Positions 32,345-38,478 of a stretch of 38,593 nucleotides of DNA are shown here, piece by piece (the stretch's first letter is position 1; every line of letters starts with the position of its first letter). The notes beneath the pieces are model-generated. The model saw nothing but the letters and a program-made list of their open reading frames with translations, was not told the DNA's origin and did no database searches. The DNA is from a virus: IMG/VR virus record IMGVR_UViG_3300027793_000151, positions 1 through 38,593 of that record; one strand, written 5' to 3'. Both the position numbers and the translations under genes were made by a program.

Positions 32345-33820
32345 ATGCATATTTGCATAGTAGGTTCAGGAGCTAGTGGATGGCTGGTAGGTAATCAGTT
32401 AAAAGAACTTTCTTTTGTAGAGAAAGTAACGATAATAGGTTCCCCTAAAATACCACACATTGGGGTAGGTGAGTCAACTACATTGACATTACCTATGGCA
32501 CATACAAAATTTAATGTTAAACTTGAAGATTTTATAAGAGAATCGCATGCAGCTGTAAAATACGGAGTATATTATAAAGGATGGAGTAAGCACGACTGGA
32601 TTCATTTTTTTAAGTCTGAGATACCTTTTAAAAAAACTAAATTATCTGCAAGAAAGTATATAATGTTACTAGGTAATAAAGACCCTGAAACATTCATACA
32701 CGATATCTACGGTTCCACAATATGGAATGAAGTAGTTGGTAAAAATAACGTATTTCCAGAGAACTATGGAATGGAGTTAGAAAACGAATATCCGAATACG
32801 TACCATTTTGATGCAGGTCAGTATATAGAATTTTTAAAAAAGCAAGCATTTAAATCCTCTAAAGTAGAGTTTATAGCAGATACTGTTGACCGGGTTAATT
32901 TTATAGAACAAGGGTATATTCCAAATTTGATGTTGGAAAGCGGGAGAATAGTAGAGGCTGATTATTATATAAATACAACAGGCCAGAATTTAAAAGTAAA
33001 GAATGTATTTAACGAACAGTACGATAGTATAGGAGATGTTTTGCTGACAACTAAAGCTGTCGTTTACCCACTTCCTTATACAAATAAAAGAGAGCAGTTT
33101 CACCCTTACACGGTAGCGAAGACCATGAAATACGGGTGGAGATGGATTACTCCAACATGGGAAAGAATAGGGACAGGCTATACTTTTTCTGAAAACCATG
33201 TAAGCGTAGATCAAGCGATAAATGAATTTATAACGGATATAGGGGATGAATCTATTATACCTAGTGTAGTTGATTTTAGACCTCGGGTTAACAGGCAGAC
33301 GTTTAAAATTAATAGTTGTTCAATTGGAATGGCTAACGGATTTTTAGAACCTCTAGATGCCCCCGGTTTAGCTTTAACTAGTACAGTTACCGTAGTATTA
33401 GAGAGAGTTCTTGAAACCTACCACCAGGCATTCAAAGATAAGAGTGTAAAGTATAACGGAAATTATAATAATAATGCTCTAATTTTTGCAAACAGTGAAA
33501 TTAAAAAAGCTTATAAATTCTGGACAACTTTTATTTTAAATCAGTATAAAACCTGTCATAGGTTTGATACTCCATTTTGGATAGATCAAAAACAGGTAAA
33601 GTGGGATGATTGGACTTTAGCAATGAAAGACCTTAATGCTTACTGTGATTTAATCAAAAACGATTACGACGTGATGATGCTTGCTCAAACTACCGCAGCA
33701 CGAAATATTCAATATTATACCCCGGTATCTAAAGAAATAAGACCTATAAAATTACCAGAGACAGTACCAACAGCTATGCATCATTTTGATTATATTGAAA
33801 GTTTTCATAGATTAAAGTAG
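32345..33820 (+). CDS. Flavin-dependent halogenase (tryptophan halogenase family)
   Basis: These enzymes use FADH2, O2 and halide to make hypohalous acid, which reaches the substrate through a lysine haloamine. The protein has 491 residues. It shows the FAD-binding GSGASGW (7-13), GVGESTTLTL (40-49, as in family GVGEAT), the catalytic-Lys region HAAVKYGVYYKGW (68-80, Lys72), YHFDAGQYIEFLKK (153-166) and WRWITP (265-270), a variant of the diagnostic W-x-W-x-I-P. Marine cyanophage Syn10 encodes VirX1, a characterised halogenase of this class with broad iodination activity. No flavin reductase gene is in the window, so reduced flavin would come from the host. The substrate is unknown. Confidence 0.9.
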   Translation: MHICIVGSGASGWLVGNQLKELSFVEKVTIIGSPKIPHIGVGESTTLTLPMAHTKFNVKLEDFIRESHAAVKYGVYYKGWSKHDWIHFFKSEIPFKKTKLSARKYIMLLGNKDPETFIHDIYGSTIWNEVVGKNNVFPENYGMELENEYPNTYHFDAGQYIEFLKKQAFKSSKVEFIADTVDRVNFIEQGYIPNLMLESGRIVEADYYINTTGQNLKVKNVFNEQYDSIGDVLLTTKAVVYPLPYTNKREQFHPYTVAKTMKYGWRWITPTWERIGTGYTFSENHVSVDQAINEFITDIGDESIIPSVVDFRPRVNRQTFKINSCSIGMANGFLEPLDAPGLALTSTVTVVLERVLETYHQAFKDKSVKYNGNYNNNALIFANSEIKKAYKFWTTFILNQYKTCHRFDTPFWIDQKQVKWDDWTLAMKDLNAYCDLIKNDYDVMMLAQTTAARNIQYYTPVSKEIRPIKLPETVPTAMHHFDYIESFHRLK

Positions 33821-33821
33821 T

Positions 33822-34469
33822 ATGAGTAAATCACATGTTTTTCCTCTCTTTCCAATTCCGCTCTACGTAACAACTTATGAAGAAGATACTACTGAGATAG
33901 TAAAGTACTTCGATAGCTGTGAGATGAATGACGGAAGAAACAGTCCTTATGGTTGGATTTCAAAAAATAGTTATATTATAGATCATCCTATATGTAAGCC
34001 TCTTGCAGACTTTTTCATGTTTCATTTTAGAGAGTTTGCAACTAATATAATGAGATACCGGTATAAAGAATTACAGTTTGCTCAGTCGTGGCTTACCTAT
34101 AAAGAACCAGGTCAATTTCATAAAGCGCACACCCATCCAAATACGCTCCTTGCAGGAGTATTCTATTTTGATCATCAACCAGGAGATGCTGCAATATGTT
34201 TTAGTAAGAAAGCAGGATCTCAATATAGAACTTATATGGAACCTTCCTTAGAGGAGGATTACCAGGAGCATCCATTTTCTCAGGAAGAAATCTATTTTAT
34301 ACCACAACGAAATAATTTTATTATATTTCCATCCTATGTTACTCACGGTGTACCCCCTAATAGAACTAGTAAAACAAGGAAAGCGTTAGGCATAAATGCC
34401 TTAACAAAAGGAACACTAGGAGACAAAGAAACAATTTCAGAGATAATATTTGGGCGTTATGCAAGTTAA
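33822..34469 (+). CDS. Putative 2OG-Fe(II) oxygenase of the TIGR02466 type, 2
   Basis: This 215-residue protein is closely related in plan to the next gene. Both start with LFPIPLYVTT-like residues, have YGWISKNSYIIDHP near 43-56, QSWLTYKEPGQFHKAHTHPN (88-107), LLAGVFYF and IIFPSYVTHGVPPN (167-180). The likely ligands are His103, His105 and His175 with R186. It starts one base after the halogenase stop, so translation is probably coupled and the two may act on the same target. The substrate is unknown. Confidence 0.82.
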   Translation: MSKSHVFPLFPIPLYVTTYEEDTTEIVKYFDSCEMNDGRNSPYGWISKNSYIIDHPICKPLADFFMFHFREFATNIMRYRYKELQFAQSWLTYKEPGQFHKAHTHPNTLLAGVFYFDHQPGDAAICFSKKAGSQYRTYMEPSLEEDYQEHPFSQEEIYFIPQRNNFIIFPSYVTHGVPPNRTSKTRKALGINALTKGTLGDKETISEIIFGRYAS

Positions 34470-35097
34470 GTATGAAATCCTAGAACTATTCCCGATCCCT
34501 GTTTACACAACAATGATACCGCCTGGTTTTTCCAAGGTAATATCGTTTTTTGATAAGCAAGATATGGGTACAGACGCTGATTATGATAATTACGGTTACC
34601 GGTCTAAAGACAGTTATATTTTAGATAGACCAGAAAGTAAAGAATTAGCGCAGTTTATTTTAGGTAACGTTAAGATGTATGCCGATCAACTTGGATACGA
34701 TTACTCCGAGTATAGATTCGGACAGTCGTGGATCTCAGTAAAAGCACCAGGGCAACATCATACGATGCACACCCATCCTAACGGACTGATCTCAGGAGTA
34801 TTCTATTACGGACCTACAGTAGAAAAAACACCAGCTATCAAGTTTCACAAGATCGCCGCTGCAGTTAACGTATCGTATATTCTACCTAAAACGGTAGACA
34901 AGAAAAAAAATCTGAAATACTCTCAGAATGAATTTTCAATAATATTCGAACCCGGTCTTTTACTTCTTTTCCCTTCCTATCTTAACCATTCGGTACCTAT
35001 AAATAAAACAGATAAACCCAGACATAGTCTTGCATTCAACATAGTACCTACAGTAGGTTTCGGAGATGAAAGAAATTTAACAGAATTAATATTTTAA
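34459..35097 (+). CDS. Putative 2OG-Fe(II) oxygenase of the TIGR02466 type, 3
   Basis: The protein has 212 residues from the ATG at 34459, overlapping the previous gene by 11 bases. A TTG three codons upstream is possible. It is a paralogue of the preceding protein: ELFPIPVYTT, YRSKDSYILDRP, FGQSWISVKAPGQHHTMHTH, LISGVFYYG and LLLFPSYLNHSVPINKT align throughout. The ligand set is His104, His106 and His177 with R188. The pair probably arose by tandem duplication, and divergence of about half the residues suggests different substrates or a heteromeric enzyme. Confidence 0.82.
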   Translation: MQVKYEILELFPIPVYTTMIPPGFSKVISFFDKQDMGTDADYDNYGYRSKDSYILDRPESKELAQFILGNVKMYADQLGYDYSEYRFGQSWISVKAPGQHHTMHTHPNGLISGVFYYGPTVEKTPAIKFHKIAAAVNVSYILPKTVDKKKNLKYSQNEFSIIFEPGLLLLFPSYLNHSVPINKTDKPRHSLAFNIVPTVGFGDERNLTELIF

Positions 35098-35098
35098 T

Positions 35099-36043
35099 AT
35101 GCAACAAGGTTACGTATACAATCCTGAACATGAAGAGAGCGTAGTAGAGTTTAAATCTAAAAAATCAAATAAATATTTTATTTGGCATATTCAGGGCGGA
35201 CTAGGTAAAAATATAGCAGCCACAGCTTTATGTAAAGACTTGAAAGAAGCTTATCCTGATCGTAAACTCATAATGGTAGTATCCTATCCGGAAGTCTTTC
35301 TAAACAATCCATACATTGATAGGGTTTATAATCTAGCTCAAGCGCCTTATTTCTATGAGGATTATATAGAAAATAAGGATGTAATTGTCTGTAGACATGA
35401 ACCTTATAATCAAACCGGTCATATTACTAAATCAAAACATCTTATTGAAAACTGGTGCGATCTTTTAGAGATCACTTATACAGAACAGCAACCAAGTGTA
35501 TATGCTAACTTTGTGCAGAGACAACTAATCGGTCTTTGGTTAAGGCAAAAACCAACAATCGTCATACAAACTAGTGGAGGACCTCTACAGGGACAGAAAT
35601 ATAGCTATTCTTGGACCCGAGATATTCCCCAAGATTTAGCGCAAACTATTGTTAACAAATTCAAAGATCAATATCATATCTTCCAGATAACTAGACCTGA
35701 CGGGTATCGACTTGAAGGAGTAGAGAGGATTGATCAGCAGTACTCCGGTATTGAGTTATTTGCTATATTAATTAATGCGCAAAAACGTATTTTAATCGAC
35801 TCATGTCTTCAACATGCTGCAGCTGCTTTTAAACTACCTTCTACAGTATTTTGGATAGGTACTTCACCGACTGTATTCGGGTATAACCTACATAACAATA
35901 TTACTGCTAAACTACCTAAAAGAGCAAACCAGCTTATAGGATCTTACCTTTTTGATTTTCAATTTGAAAACAATATACACGAATGTCCTTATATGGAGTT
36001 AGAAGATGTATTTGATATCAAGGAAGTAATTAGTAATATTTAA
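35099..36043 (+). CDS. Glycosyltransferase, GT9-like (heptosyltransferase fold)
   Basis: This 314-residue protein has the GT-B layout of family 9. The N-terminal Rossmann half opens FIWHIQGGLGKNIAATALCK (27-46), with PDRKLIMVVSYPEVFLNNPYIDRVY as the usual second strand and loop. The C-terminal half has IVIQTSGGP (154-162) and IDSCLQHAAAAFKLPSTVFW (233-252), matching the GT9 D-x-x-x-x-H-x-A-A-A nucleotide-sugar-site motif. Family members add heptose or other sugars to lipopolysaccharide or glycans. A phage copy could alter host surface glycans or decorate its own proteins. It starts one base after the oxygenase stop. Confidence 0.75.
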   Translation: MQQGYVYNPEHEESVVEFKSKKSNKYFIWHIQGGLGKNIAATALCKDLKEAYPDRKLIMVVSYPEVFLNNPYIDRVYNLAQAPYFYEDYIENKDVIVCRHEPYNQTGHITKSKHLIENWCDLLEITYTEQQPSVYANFVQRQLIGLWLRQKPTIVIQTSGGPLQGQKYSYSWTRDIPQDLAQTIVNKFKDQYHIFQITRPDGYRLEGVERIDQQYSGIELFAILINAQKRILIDSCLQHAAAAFKLPSTVFWIGTSPTVFGYNLHNNITAKLPKRANQLIGSYLFDFQFENNIHECPYMELEDVFDIKEVISNI

Positions 36044-36045
36044 TC

Positions 36046-36867
36046 ATGAAACAGACAATATTTTATCAAAGCTCTTTACCGAGAGCAGGCTCTACGCTTC
36101 TACAAAACCTTATAGGCCAAAATTCCGACTTCCACGTAACACCTACATCAGGAATGATTGATTTAGTTCTAGGCGCTAGAATAGGTTATAACGGCAACAA
36201 AGAGGCATACGCAGGAGATAAGGATATGTGGCGTGATGGATTCTATGCTTTTTGCAGAGAAGGATTAAGAGGGTATGTAGAGAATCTTACTGATAAACCT
36301 TACATTCTAGACAAAAATAGAAACTGGGGATCTATTTACTCATTAGTAAATAATATCTACCCCAATCCAAAGGTACTCTACATGGTTAGAGACTTACGAG
36401 CAGTATTTGCTTCTATGGAAAAAAAGTTTAGAGCTAATCCCGATAGAGACATGGGCGAGATAGATAATGCTAAACTAAAAGGACTAACTACACAGCAGAG
36501 AGTCGAACAGTGGGCCGTAAGTCACCCAATTGGACATGCTATACCAAAATTATATCAAGCAATCCTTGATAAGACAGCTAGAAACTTTTTAATCATTAGG
36601 TATGAAGACCTCTGTACCAATCCTGAAGGTATGATGCAGAGTATCTACCGATATCTTGAAATACCTTATTTTCAACATAACTTTAATCACATACCTCAAA
36701 TCACAGTCGAAGACGATACCGTTCACGGTATCTACGGAGATCATACCATCAGAAATAAATTAGGAGCACTACCTGACGATTCAAAAGAGATACTAGGTAC
36801 TTATACCTCTGAATGGATATACAACAATTTTAATTGGTTTTTTGATACTTTCAATTACAAACATTGA
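36046..36867 (+). CDS. PAPS-dependent sulfotransferase
   Basis: The enzyme transfers sulfate from PAPS to a hydroxyl or amine. It has 273 residues. The 5'-phosphosulfate-binding loop is SSLPRAGSTLLQNL (9-22). The 3'-phosphate-binding motif is LYMVRDLRAVFASME (111-125) with Arg115. ILDKNRNWG (87-95) matches the conserved DK-x-R in this Pfam sulfotransferase_3-like group, and IRYEDLCTNPEGMMQ follows. No signal peptide is present, so it acts in the cytoplasm. Its stop overlaps the APS kinase start (TTGA), tying donor synthesis and donor use together. The acceptor may be a glycan, lipid or protein; sequence does not say. Confidence 0.9.
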   Translation: MKQTIFYQSSLPRAGSTLLQNLIGQNSDFHVTPTSGMIDLVLGARIGYNGNKEAYAGDKDMWRDGFYAFCREGLRGYVENLTDKPYILDKNRNWGSIYSLVNNIYPNPKVLYMVRDLRAVFASMEKKFRANPDRDMGEIDNAKLKGLTTQQRVEQWAVSHPIGHAIPKLYQAILDKTARNFLIIRYEDLCTNPEGMMQSIYRYLEIPYFQHNFNHIPQITVEDDTVHGIYGDHTIRNKLGALPDDSKEILGTYTSEWIYNNFNWFFDTFNYKH

Positions 36868-37319
36868 TTATAGTTTTATTTGGACAACCGCATTGCGGTA
36901 AATCAACGCTTGCAAAAAAGCTTATAGGAGAGGAATGCTTCAGTCAATACTGGAATATTGACGGAGATGAGCTACGTGAAATTTTTAAAAATAAAAGCTT
37001 CAACAGGAAAGGGCGTATTCAGAACCTGAACAGGGCTAGCGACATTGCGCACTACCTAAATAGTATAGGAAGCGACGGTATTATTCTATCACTGGTATAT
37101 CCGTATAGAGAGGCTCGCAACTACCTTAATAGTTTAACCGACGATGTTAAATGGGTGTATTTAACCTACGAAGGAGAAAGAGGTAGAGAAAAATTTCACG
37201 TTCAAGATTTTGAATTACCAGAAAAAGAACGTATATTACATTTAGACACGTCTAAACTATCAATATCAGAATGTGTTGATGCAATAAAGCGTTATACTAA
37301 TGAAGAACTACCTAGCTAA
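36864..37319 (+). CDS. cysC: Adenylylsulfate (APS) kinase-like
   Basis: The enzyme would phosphorylate APS to PAPS, the donor for the adjacent sulfotransferase. It has 151 residues, shorter than usual (about 180-200). Walker A is GQPHCGKST (7-15). IDGDELREIF (32-41) matches the LDGD-x-x-R motif, FNRKGRIQNLNRASDIAHYL (46-65) the R-x-x-N-x-x-R region, and LSLVYPYREARNYL (75-88) the SPYR-x-x-R motif. DTSKLSISECVDAI matches the family's C-terminal DTSKL. The lid region after residue 100 is shortened. The start is a TTG at 36864 overlapping the previous stop; no in-frame ATG exists before Walker A. A related small kinase is possible, but motif order favours APS kinase. Confidence 0.85.
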   Translation: MIIVLFGQPHCGKSTLAKKLIGEECFSQYWNIDGDELREIFKNKSFNRKGRIQNLNRASDIAHYLNSIGSDGIILSLVYPYREARNYLNSLTDDVKWVYLTYEGERGREKFHVQDFELPEKERILHLDTSKLSISECVDAIKRYTNEELPS

Positions 37320-37686
37320 AGCACAAAGTAAATCAGGGGAGTGGGCTATGTTTATCGGAAGATGGCAACCTTGGCATCCTGGACATCGTTGGCTTATTGA
37401 TCAAGCCCTCGAAGAAGGAAAGAAAGTGTTGCTATGTATTCGCGACGTCCCTGTAAGTGAAAAGAACCCGTGGACGGCTCAAGAAATTCTAATGAATCTA
37501 TCTATCGAGTTAAAAGATCTTGTAGAAGAGGGTAAGCTAAATATCATGAAGATTCCAGATATTGAATCAATTAATATAGGCCGTGGAGTAGGTTACGATG
37601 TTATTGAACACGTACCCCCTCAAGACATTCACGATATATCCGCAACTAAGATCCGCGAGCAAATGAAAGCTGAAGGTAAGCTATGA
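37300..37686 (+). CDS. HxGH-type nucleotidyltransferase
   Basis: This 128-residue protein shows MFIGRWQPWHPGHRWLIDQA (17-36), with the HPGH signature, and ISATKIREQM (113-122), equivalent to the ISSTxIR phosphate-binding motif of the cytidylyltransferase/NMNAT-like superfamily. These enzymes transfer AMP or CMP from ATP or CTP. The context (APS kinase upstream with 20 bases overlap, sulfotransferase before that) suggests a role in sulfate activation, perhaps APS formation, since ATP sulfurylase belongs to the same broad fold class. That is inference; NAD, CoA or sugar-nucleotide synthesis remain possible. An internal ATG at 37348 would remove 16 residues and the overlap. Confidence 0.82.
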   Translation: MKNYLAKAQSKSGEWAMFIGRWQPWHPGHRWLIDQALEEGKKVLLCIRDVPVSEKNPWTAQEILMNLSIELKDLVEEGKLNIMKIPDIESINIGRGVGYDVIEHVPPQDIHDISATKIREQMKAEGKL

Positions 37687-38024
37687 AGAAGTTTCCTACG
37701 TGTTTTGTTGACATCGATGGTACTCTTATAAAGTATAGACCTTTTGATGTGCTTCAGACAGCAGAACCTGAACCTATACAGAGCGTTATCAATTTAGTGA
37801 ACAAAGAGTATAATGAAGGTGCACATATAGTAATAACAACTGCTCGTCCTCCTGAACTAGAGGTGTTTACAAAACAAGAACTAGAAAAGCTAGGGGTAAA
37901 ATATCATCAAATAGTTTTTGGAATCGGTAGAGGAACTCGTTATCTTATAAATGACCGTGATCCTGAACAGCCAAACGTAGATAGAGCTGTTGCAATAAAT
38001 TTAAATAGAAATTCAGGTATATGA
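37683..38024 (+). CDS. HAD-superfamily hydrolase, short
   Basis: The protein has 113 residues. HAD motif I is VDIDGTL (9-15), with Asp10 as nucleophile and Asp12 as acid. Motif II is ITTARP (51-56). A basic residue follows in KQELEKLGV (65-72), and INDRDP (89-94) is the motif III-like end. There is almost no cap domain, so large substrates or protein substrates could reach the site. Similar short HADs appear in marine phages. In this sulfation run it might hydrolyse the 3'-phosphate of PAP, or act on a sugar phosphate, but sequence does not decide. It overlaps both neighbours by ATGA. Confidence 0.85.
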   Translation: MKKFPTCFVDIDGTLIKYRPFDVLQTAEPEPIQSVINLVNKEYNEGAHIVITTARPPELEVFTKQELEKLGVKYHQIVFGIGRGTRYLINDRDPEQPNVDRAVAINLNRNSGI

Positions 38025-38254
38025 TAGACGTTAAGGTAAGGTGGAACACTCAATGTAAAGATAATCATAACTTTTGGAGAATATTGATTGATGGAGAGGA
38101 GCGCATTTGTTGTAATGTTATATTTCAACTACCTGTACATACGACTCGAGATACGGTTTGGGATTCATTAAGAAACCAAGAAGTAGATAAACACCACATA
38201 AGTTGCCAAGCAACTGAAGTTATTTGGAAAGGTGACGTAGTATTAATAAGATGA
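38021..38254 (+). CDS. Small protein of unknown function in sulfation run
   Basis: This 77-residue protein (MIDVKVRWNTQCKDNHNFWR...) has a beta-rich look with three Cys (12, 30, 31) and another at 62. VRWNTQCKDNHNFWRILIDGEERICCNVIF may form a small sheet. Three cysteines plus HHISCQATE could bind metal, though no clear zinc motif is present. It is linked by four-base overlaps to the HAD gene before and the DUF2061 gene after, so it is part of the same coupled run. Function is not known. Confidence 0.75.
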   Translation: MIDVKVRWNTQCKDNHNFWRILIDGEERICCNVIFQLPVHTTRDTVWDSLRNQEVDKHHISCQATEVIWKGDVVLIR

Positions 38255-38478
38255 TAGTAGAGAAAAAACGACATATAGCGAAAACCATCAGTTATCGCGT
38301 TTTGAGTACCTTGATTGGATTCGTAATAATGTGGGGAGTTTCTGGGTCAATTAAAATCGGTGCTGCGTTTGGTGTTGCCGAACTCGTTTACAAACCAATT
38401 CAGTACTATATACACGAACGAATATGGTATAGATGGGTTACATACGGTCTTAAGAAAGAAGAAGATATAAAGACATAG
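38251..38478 (+). CDS. DUF2061 membrane protein
   Basis: This 75-residue protein has the DUF2061 pattern: KTISYRVLSTLIGFVIMW (11-28), a short loop GSIKIGAAFGVAELVYKPIQYYIHERIW (31-58), then a charged end. Two membrane helices are expected. As I recall, members in bacteria are often encoded near sulfate-activation genes (cysC/cysN/cysD), which would fit the APS kinase four genes upstream; I cannot check this here. A role in sulfate or sulfonate entry, or as an anchor for the sulfation enzymes, is possible. It ends the coupled run that began with the sulfotransferase. Confidence 0.8.
   Translation: MIVEKKRHIAKTISYRVLSTLIGFVIMWGVSGSIKIGAAFGVAELVYKPIQYYIHERIWYRWVTYGLKKEEDIKT

Follow-up and report, generated by a model that had tools for sequence, protein, structure and literature searches.

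A six-gene phage operon as a possible compact module for PAPS synthesis and sulfotransfer

Background

The closest described counterparts of the locus analysed here are the synthetase of 3'-phosphoadenosine 5'-phosphosulfate (PAPS; human PAPSS1) and the bacterial cysDNC genes, in which a kinase of the adenosine 5'-phosphosulfate (APS) kinase fold is coupled to a nucleotidyltransferase. In PAPSS proteins the kinase domain comes first. Similar coupling is seen in a six-gene operon at positions 36046-38478 of IMG/VR virus record IMGVR_UViG_3300027793_000151 (38,593 bases, possibly a fragment of a larger genome; the whole record is called the window), which also encodes phage terminase, portal, and major head proteins. 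The operon (Table 1) encodes a sulfotransferase (ST), an APS-kinase-family protein (KIN), an HxGH nucleotidyltransferase (NT), a HAD phosphatase, a conserved protein called o77, and a DUF2061 protein, and in some phages KIN and NT are fused kinase-first as well. In contrast to PAPSS1 and cysDNC, however, NT has ~128 residues, is NadM-like, and lacks the motif of ATP sulfurylases, and the lid of KIN is short. On balance, the operon seems to be a compact module for making PAPS and transferring sulfate, in which NT would produce APS, KIN would convert it to PAPS, and ST would sulfate an acceptor.

Viral cysC genes and phage sulfotransferases are both already known, and what the operon may add is a possible new enzyme class, namely NT. 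The consulted parts of PMC10914622 report 62 viral cysC genes from freshwater phages, of which transcripts were present in lake samples, those of PMC9529941 report cysC in deep-sea trench viruses, and those of PMC8190135 and PMC8066274 report further cases; the viral nadM genes also named in PMC8066274 might be NT or a different gene. Like KIN, these auxiliary metabolic genes belong to the APS-kinase family. In the consulted parts of PMC10914622, PMC9529941, and PMC8190135, cysC is read as assimilatory sulfur metabolism; the word "sulfotransferase" is absent from their three main texts, and "nucleotidyltransferase" from that of PMC10914622. So far, viral cysC has been interpreted as enhancing sulfate assimilation, whereas here a member of that family is bound to NT, DUF2061, and, depending on the phage, various sulfotransferases, which points to sulfation.

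Regarding phage sulfotransferases, the available parts of PMC12285232 and PMC13079714 list them as abundant viral genes, those of PMC10829341 propose that they modify nucleotides or proteins, and those of PMC10580990 call their function unclear. The enzymes of cyanophages S-SRM01, S-SCSM1, and S-SKS1 (25-29% identity to ST) are of the same Sulfotransfer_3 kind as ST, as are those of the OM43-phage metagenomic genomes described in part of PMC10580990. The window ST, unlike these, overlaps a putative PAPS-supplying pair, and about half of viral ST loci have this pair nearby. Within the open-licence PMC literature, taken without supplements and preprints, no paper was found that joins a phage sulfotransferase, cysC, and a nucleotidyltransferase.

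Gene linkage in viral contigs

The open reading frame coordinates bear out six end-to-end overlapping genes, with the overlaps recorded in the first-pass annotation: TTGA at 36864-36867, 20 bases at 37300-37319, and ATGA at 37683, 38021, and 38251. Between the window and its relative L005 (86-91% amino acid identity) the ratio of nonsynonymous to synonymous substitution rates (dN/dS) is 0.03-0.05 for ST, KIN, NT, and DUF2061, rough values with dS of 1.2-2.3, which indicates that these four are working genes; the ratio was not computable for o77, and HAD was excluded because L005 gave no HAD match. A search of phage records at the DNA level and with the KIN protein returned no match.

Linkage was assessed in scans anchored on single genes that keep the best 80 relatives (80 of 538 for NT, 80 of 547 for distant KIN, 80 of 576 for ST, and 80 of 514 viral ones for DUF2061), with all 54 close KIN genes kept. 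Many contigs are near-identical, and loci with identical anchor DNA were dropped, which reduced the close-KIN set from 54 to 39, NT from 80 to 63, distant KIN from 80 to 67, DUF2061 from 80 to 69, and ST from 80 to 63; the five sets overlap and were pooled to count KIN genes. In the pooled count, NT shares the locus with 181 of 184 distinct viral KIN genes and lies within 150 bp in 156 cases. Together with the low dN/dS values, this argues that the operon is not a product of chance.

The separate sets give a similar picture. NT is found in all 39 close-KIN loci, DUF2061 in 37, and ST in 33, and the 63 NT-anchored loci contain KIN in 62 cases, DUF2061 in 59, and a sulfotransferase in 44. For distant KIN, the respective values are 66 of 67 for NT and 34 for DUF2061. 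Around viral DUF2061 genes, NT appears in 68 of 69 loci (within 150 bp in 54), KIN in 38, and a sulfotransferase in 33. ST-anchored loci, however, contain KIN and NT together in only 32 of 63 cases within the fetched 8-kb flanks. Thus, KIN-NT is the tightest pair, followed by NT-DUF2061, and ST is frequent but optional. The initial view of the genes as one self-contained system is not general, as about half of the ST loci show no KIN-NT pair within these flanks.

Single-chain KIN-NT fusions, kinase first, occur in two phages infecting Stenotrophomonas and in a single genome of Pseudomonadota (L129:2587-3327, L130:2620-3351, and L479:1462-2280). The equilibrium of ATP sulfurylase is unfavourable, so direct coupling to KIN would help, which would fit both the near-invariant pairing and the fusions. 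A 115-residue open reading frame elsewhere (L390:6133-6480) has a KIN-like start with the P-loop and an NT-like end (GRGVGY...ISAT), and resembles a deletion fusion.

Sulfate activation genes in bacteria and SAR11

DUF2061 links the phage genes to cellular sulfate activation. The alignment scan of genomes kept the best 80 of 551 DUF2061 relatives, which are mostly Flavobacteriia by title and therefore not independent. Counted with CysD and CysN queries from L155, a locus of a flavobacterial metagenome-assembled genome (MAG), a CysC-type kinase is present in 76 of these loci, CysD in 72, CysN in 71, and all three in 71, with none in four. In 72 of 80 loci the kinase is no more than 300 bp away from DUF2061 or forms one protein with it (fusion to CysC in 7). 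DUF2061 is thus a companion common to cysCDN loci and the phage operon, and the 76 kinase loci include L137, a 9-kb contig whose own arrangement is KIN-NT-DUF2061. Apparent CysN matches over KIN reading frames were discarded, being due to the CysC part of a Mesorhizobium CysN query.

The flavobacterial MAG loci L155 and L186 combine a phage-type kinase (E-values of 2.5e-51 and 5.8e-43, respectively, to the KIN profile) with DUF2061-CysD-CysN, and a search of both genomes for NT found none. CysDN therefore stands where phages have NT. A comparable arrangement is seen in the rhizobial nodulation locus on the Mesorhizobium huakuii symbiosis plasmid (L133), in which a sulfotransferase, DUF2061, cysD, and cysN are consecutive; as in the window, sulfotransferase, DUF2061, and sulfate activation genes lie together, but CysD and CysN (with a CysC part) take the place of NT and KIN. 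A Microvirga plasmid carries CysD-CysN-DUF2061.

Among cellular genomes, NT was found in two of the three Pelagibacteraceae genomes reached via DUF2061. In the SAR11 genus of one of them (201 genomes, many incomplete), NT occurs in 145 genomes, Sulfotransfer_3 in 127, and DUF2061 in 60, and known ATP sulfurylases are represented by CysD in 0 and PF01747 in 9. Many of the Sulfotransfer_3 matches lie in reading frames of ~420-590 codons, which indicates a subfamily other than ST. A KIN-profile gene adjoins NT in 21 of the 22 SAR11 loci read, or 22 of 23 counting L295 (the L137 contig). It is the same gene pair in the same order as in phages; in contrast, these are host genes, the kinases have a different motif (see below), and DUF2061 is not adjacent in the loci read. 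Examples of the pair are L297:974-1773 and L296:1074-1854. A wider draw of Pseudomonadota yielded NT in only 3 of 398 genomes, including the SAR11 centre, with one fused KIN-NT and one weaker partial match among them.

The cysC gene listed for SAR11 strains in the table cited next is assumed to be the kinase of this pair. According to the text of PMC5069961, Ca. P. ubique lacks both cysDNCHIJ and sat, and its Table 3 lists cysC in 5, cysQ in 7, cysD in 1, and cysN in 2 of 7 SAR11 strains. NT could fill this gap in the SAR11 pathway, from sulfate to APS; if it does make APS, the presence of cysC and cysQ mostly without cysD and cysN in the part of PMC5069961 consulted would be accounted for.

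Taken together, the KIN-NT linkage, the association of NT with DUF2061 and of DUF2061 with cysCDN, the CysDN genes of the two MAG loci, and the SAR11 gap suggest that KIN-NT probably makes PAPS, with NT replacing ATP sulfurylase.

Assignment of KIN, NT, and ST

KIN was initially described as an APS kinase-like P-loop protein beside a sulfotransferase, and both profile and fold place it in the APS-kinase family. It matches APS_kinase (PF01583) with an E-value of 1.6e-9 (38.4 bits versus a cut-off of 21.1) over residues 2-95 only, and the KIN family profile finds APS kinases first in PDB (1.2e-14). For the predicted model (mean local confidence, pLDDT, 88.5), the 28 best VIA matches (Z 17.8-20.6, root-mean-square deviation 1.8-2.4, 132-149 residues aligned) are all either APS kinases or, within PAPS synthetases and ATP sulfurylases, the APS-kinase(-like) domain. 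Gluconate kinase comes next with Z 17.7, so the margin to the last APS-kinase matches (17.8) is small. Invariant in 26 aligned sequences are G12 and K13 of the P-loop, D33, G34, D35, and R38 of DGDxxR, as well as R51 and N54; the P-loop, DGDxxR, and R--N are presumably the motifs of APS kinases. KIN is thus an APS-kinase-family protein as judged by sequence and model, and APS is its likely substrate. A polynucleotide kinase was considered and dismissed, the sign of it being a weak PHROG match over residues 2-44, whereas the fold matches are APS kinases.

NT matches CTP_transf_like (PF01467) with an E-value of 5.7e-7 and has 25 invariant columns in 29 aligned sequences, among them H26, G28, and H29 of HxGH and S114, A115, T116, and R119 of SxTxxR. 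Other relatives vary, with GRWQTWH or GRWQNWH, and one has GRAVGY. From HxGH to the second motif, NT counts 82-84 residues, GR[GD]VGY among them, versus 122 in phage NadM. We take the segment between the motifs of NadM to hold the site for nicotinamide mononucleotide (NMN). With ~38 residues fewer, a small acceptor would fit in NT. Loop 90-106 is the least certain part of the NT model, with pLDDT below 50.

The sulfotransferase with both PAPS-binding motifs announced in the first-pass annotation is confirmed and looks intact. ST matches Sulfotransfer_3 (PF13469) with 1.1e-17 (65.5 bits versus a cut-off of 27) and Sulfotransfer_1 with 3.7e-11. The residues of its 5'-phosphosulfate-binding (5'-PSB) and 3'-phosphate-binding (3'-PB) motifs, P12, R13, G15, S16, and T17 and R115, D116, R118, and S123, are invariant in 18 aligned sequences, and among solved sequences the closest is protein-tyrosine sulfotransferase 1 (E 1.4e-10).

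Judging by profile matches, the KIN-NT-DUF2061 core is joined by sulfotransferases from more than one Pfam family. Among 50 long contigs, chosen by length (~40 kb or more; L076 of 51 left out), 26 have Sulfotransfer_3 over the cut-off: 24 of the 25 with KIN at least 50% identical to that of the window, and 2 of the 25 others. Three contigs with KIN below 50% identity (L117, L118, and L121) show a weaker Sulfotransfer_3 match, and the L117 protein exceeds the Sulfotransfer_1 cut-off (29.9 versus 22 bits). A further protein with sulfotransferase-like motifs, termed STB, occurs in a carbamoyltransferase-KIN-NT-DUF2061 setting in 18 of 78 loci; Sulfotransfer_2 matches were obtained for 4 of 15 members (best 9e-5), and the best PDB match of its profile is heparan sulfate 2-O-sulfotransferase, with a weak E-value of 0.017. 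In the same 50 contigs, PF01747 was found in none and PF01507 in none over its cut-off, with one weak match.

Proposed pathway

In the proposed pathway NT would condense ATP and sulfate to APS, KIN, whose family and fold are supported above, would phosphorylate the 3'-hydroxyl of APS to give PAPS, and ST, with its PAPS motifs, would transfer sulfate from PAPS to an acceptor, for which a glycan or protein surface is plausible in view of a glycosyltransferase-like neighbour. DUF2061, a small predicted membrane protein, accompanies sulfate activation in many cells, and help with sulfate entry or tethering is a guess at its role. KIN-NT-DUF2061 would form the core, to which different phages add different sulfotransferases. 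The initial idea that the phage secures its own PAPS and sulfates a target thus stands as far as the families of ST and KIN are concerned, and for the APS step it leans on gene association.

A tentative extension, which we hold with some reserve, is that NT founds a third class of ATP sulfurylases: a stand-alone HxGH enzyme of 125 residues with GR[GD]VGY as oxyanion loop, which arose from a NadM-like adenylyltransferase when the segment for the nucleotide acceptor was lost. In phages it would form a miniature PAPS synthetase together with a short-lid APS kinase, and the same pair is carried by SAR11, which is said to be without assimilatory sulfate reduction. If NT makes APS, it is a small and easily assayed enzyme, and phage sulfotransferases would gain a donor pathway. 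The operon as a whole points to phages sulfating something in infected cells.

Alternative explanations

Several observations weigh against this pathway. According to its sequence, NT does not qualify as an ATP sulfurylase: ATP sulfurylases have the motif QxRNPxH (QxRNPxHxxH), instead of which NT carries GRWQPWHPGH, and PF01747 gives no match to NT at E 0.1. No ATP-sulfurylase structure is among the listed fold matches of NT, an absence that carries no weight either way. The earlier suggestion that NT forms APS is therefore left without the sequence signature, but retains the association with DUF2061-cysCDN, the replacement of NT by CysDN in two MAG loci, and the scarcity of known ATP sulfurylases in SAR11. 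KIN is also atypical: its lid region has 18 residues versus 36 in bacterial CysC (18 fewer), and it scores 35.8 bits versus an NCBIfam equivalog cut-off of 138.7, which together rule it out as a canonical CysC equivalog; SAR11 kinases have NADEVR in place of DGDxxR. In 3 of the 184 viral cases KIN occurs without NT (the L263/L264 gene, L402, and L403).

KIN and ST might make and use PAPS from host APS, with NT having another, regulatory or adenylylation, task and travelling with KIN for a different reason. Many hosts possess CysDN or Sat. L402 and L403, which have ST-KIN-DUF2061 without NT, would suit such an arrangement, as would the 31 of 63 distinct ST loci whose fetched flanks contain no KIN-NT pair and the failure of NT to resemble ATP sulfurylases. 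We nevertheless regard it as unlikely, if the most serious competitor, since the KIN-NT linkage is nearly invariant and extends to fused proteins, NT is tied to DUF2061 even in loci without KIN, and a known ATP sulfurylase is missing from most of the SAR11 genomes sampled.

Further observations also weigh against the pathway. Here, a recognised sulfotransferase is one found with PF13469 or the two ST profiles, PF00685 and PF03567 not having been run on whole contigs. Only 22 of 67 distinct distant-KIN loci have one, and none was recognised in the fetched flanks of KIN-NT-DUF2061 loci such as L266, L287, and L292. In the setting DUF3310-KIN-NT-(o77)-DNA methylase, neither DUF2061 nor a recognised sulfotransferase is in reach, so that the sulfation module first envisaged is not general to KIN-NT lineages. 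Searches of 18 whole contigs, all possibly fragments, found KIN nowhere else on the 12 that have NT-DUF2061 without a local KIN, and found KIN elsewhere on 2 of 6 ST contigs without a local KIN-NT pair. Sulfur-activation genes are present in only 2 of the 8 plasmid DUF2061 regions opened (16 records matched); the other six (two from P. aeruginosa and one each from Haloterrigena, Natrinema, Halomicrobium, and Bradyrhizobium) have no sulfur-activation gene, which suggests that DUF2061 as a whole is broader than sulfate activation. Across the 201 SAR11 genomes, Sulfotransfer_3 is not significantly more frequent in those with NT than in those without (94 of 145 versus 33 of 56, p 0.51), and NT and DUF2061 are independent (p 0.73). 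The several KIN-NT settings without a recognised sulfotransferase, one of them also without DUF2061, indicate that sulfation may not be the sole use of the pair.

KIN-NT might make another 3'-phosphorylated adenylyl compound, in which case NT would attach AMP to some small acid that is not sulfate and the ribose would be phosphorylated by KIN. CDP-phosphoramidate kinase and the pair of PPAT and dephospho-CoA kinase are parallels. The DUF3310 lineage fits such a product, as do phage Bhz60, in which a fused KIN-NT adjoins a NADAR-domain gene and a DNA methyltransferase, and SAR11, in which NT is more widespread than Sulfotransfer_3 or DUF2061 (145, 127, and 60 of 201). Its probability appears low, however, because DUF2061 ties the core to cellular sulfate activation and sulfotransferases accompany it.

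The nearest families of NT are NadM-type NMN adenylyltransferases, with archaeal NMNAT/NadM in PDB at 4.5e-9, and NadM/NMNAT and PPAT are its closest profiles and folds. These matches would suit NAD salvage of the NadR type, in which a kinase of nicotinamide-riboside type (KIN) would work with a shortened NMN adenylyltransferase (NT); phage NadM genes adjoining a nicotinamide phosphoribosyltransferase are known. This explanation seems very improbable, given the 82-84 versus 122 residues between the motifs of NT and of NadM, with GR[GD]VGY where NT lacks part of that stretch, the NT score of 35.2 bits, far below the NMNAT equivalog cut-off of 181.2, and the best alignment of KIN with APS kinases. 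On account of the inter-motif segment and the equivalog score, NT was not filed as NMNAT. The preferred reading of KIN-NT continues to be PAPS synthesis.

Other genes of the operon and its surroundings

Table 1. Coordinates and assignment of the operon genes and the glycosyltransferase-like gene in the window
Gene	Position	Strand	Assignment	Basis
ST	36046..36867	+	PAPS-dependent sulfotransferase, 273 residues, Sulfotransfer_3	Pfam and invariant PAPS motifs
KIN	36864..37319	+	Short-lid APS-kinase-family P-loop kinase, 151 residues	PF01583, PDB profile, fold
NT	37300..37686	+	HxGH nucleotidyltransferase with GRGVGY loop, 128 residues; proposed minimal ATP sulfurylase	PF01467, linkage
HAD	37683..38024	+	HAD phosphatase, PNKP-3'-phosphatase-like, 113 residues	HAD_PNKP just below cut-off; recurrence in relatives
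o77	38021..38254	+	Conserved protein without family, 77 residues	Relatives adjoin NT
DUF2061	38251..38478	+	Predicted membrane protein, 75 residues	PF09834
Glycosyltransferase-like	35099..36043	+	Glycosyltransferase-like protein, directly 5' of ST	Heptosyltransferase-like match, E 0.069; recurrence

The HAD protein matches HAD_PNKP with an E-value of 7.2e-6 (26.6 bits, just under the cut-off of 27.6). Among the annotations of its relatives, polynucleotide kinases/3'-phosphatases and phosphoheptose isomerases prevail, and no CysQ or inositol-phosphatase-type family is among its matches at E 0.1. In part of the relatives the gene recurs after or beside NT, or between KIN and NT. This recurrent adjacency gives weak support to the initial idea that HAD acts on 3'-phosphoadenosine 5'-phosphate (PAP), whose 3'-phosphate a PNKP-type phosphatase may be able to remove.

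DUF2061 is assigned by PF09834 with 1.8e-15 (57.6 bits versus a cut-off of 23.1). For o77, no family exceeds its cut-off in the profile libraries, and its relatives adjoin NT. The 72-77-residue proteins read in the DUF3310 lineage (L224, L260, and L275) are o77 relatives, and the DUF2061 profile has no match there. In L402:5411-5851 and L403:4007-4438, two loci without NT, the gene that immediately follows KIN encodes DUF2061 joined to an o77-like domain. In another phage lineage (L421, L449, L469, and similar loci), NT-DUF2061 is present but the contigs tested show no KIN, and in several of its loci a gene resembling an ultraviolet endonuclease, named by eye, precedes NT-DUF2061.

The glycosyltransferase-like protein reaches no Pfam family at the cut-off, and its heptosyltransferase-like match is weak. 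Its gene recurs beside ST and KIN in relatives, and the protein is possibly linked to the ST acceptor. In the STB lineage, a carbamoyltransferase lies directly 5' of KIN-NT-DUF2061 (L272:6177-7844 and relatives). Just upstream in the window, a tryptophan halogenase and two 2-oxoglutarate (2OG)-Fe(II) oxygenases are encoded at 32345-35097, and in the carbamoyltransferase/STB lineage, too, KIN-NT has similar sets nearby.

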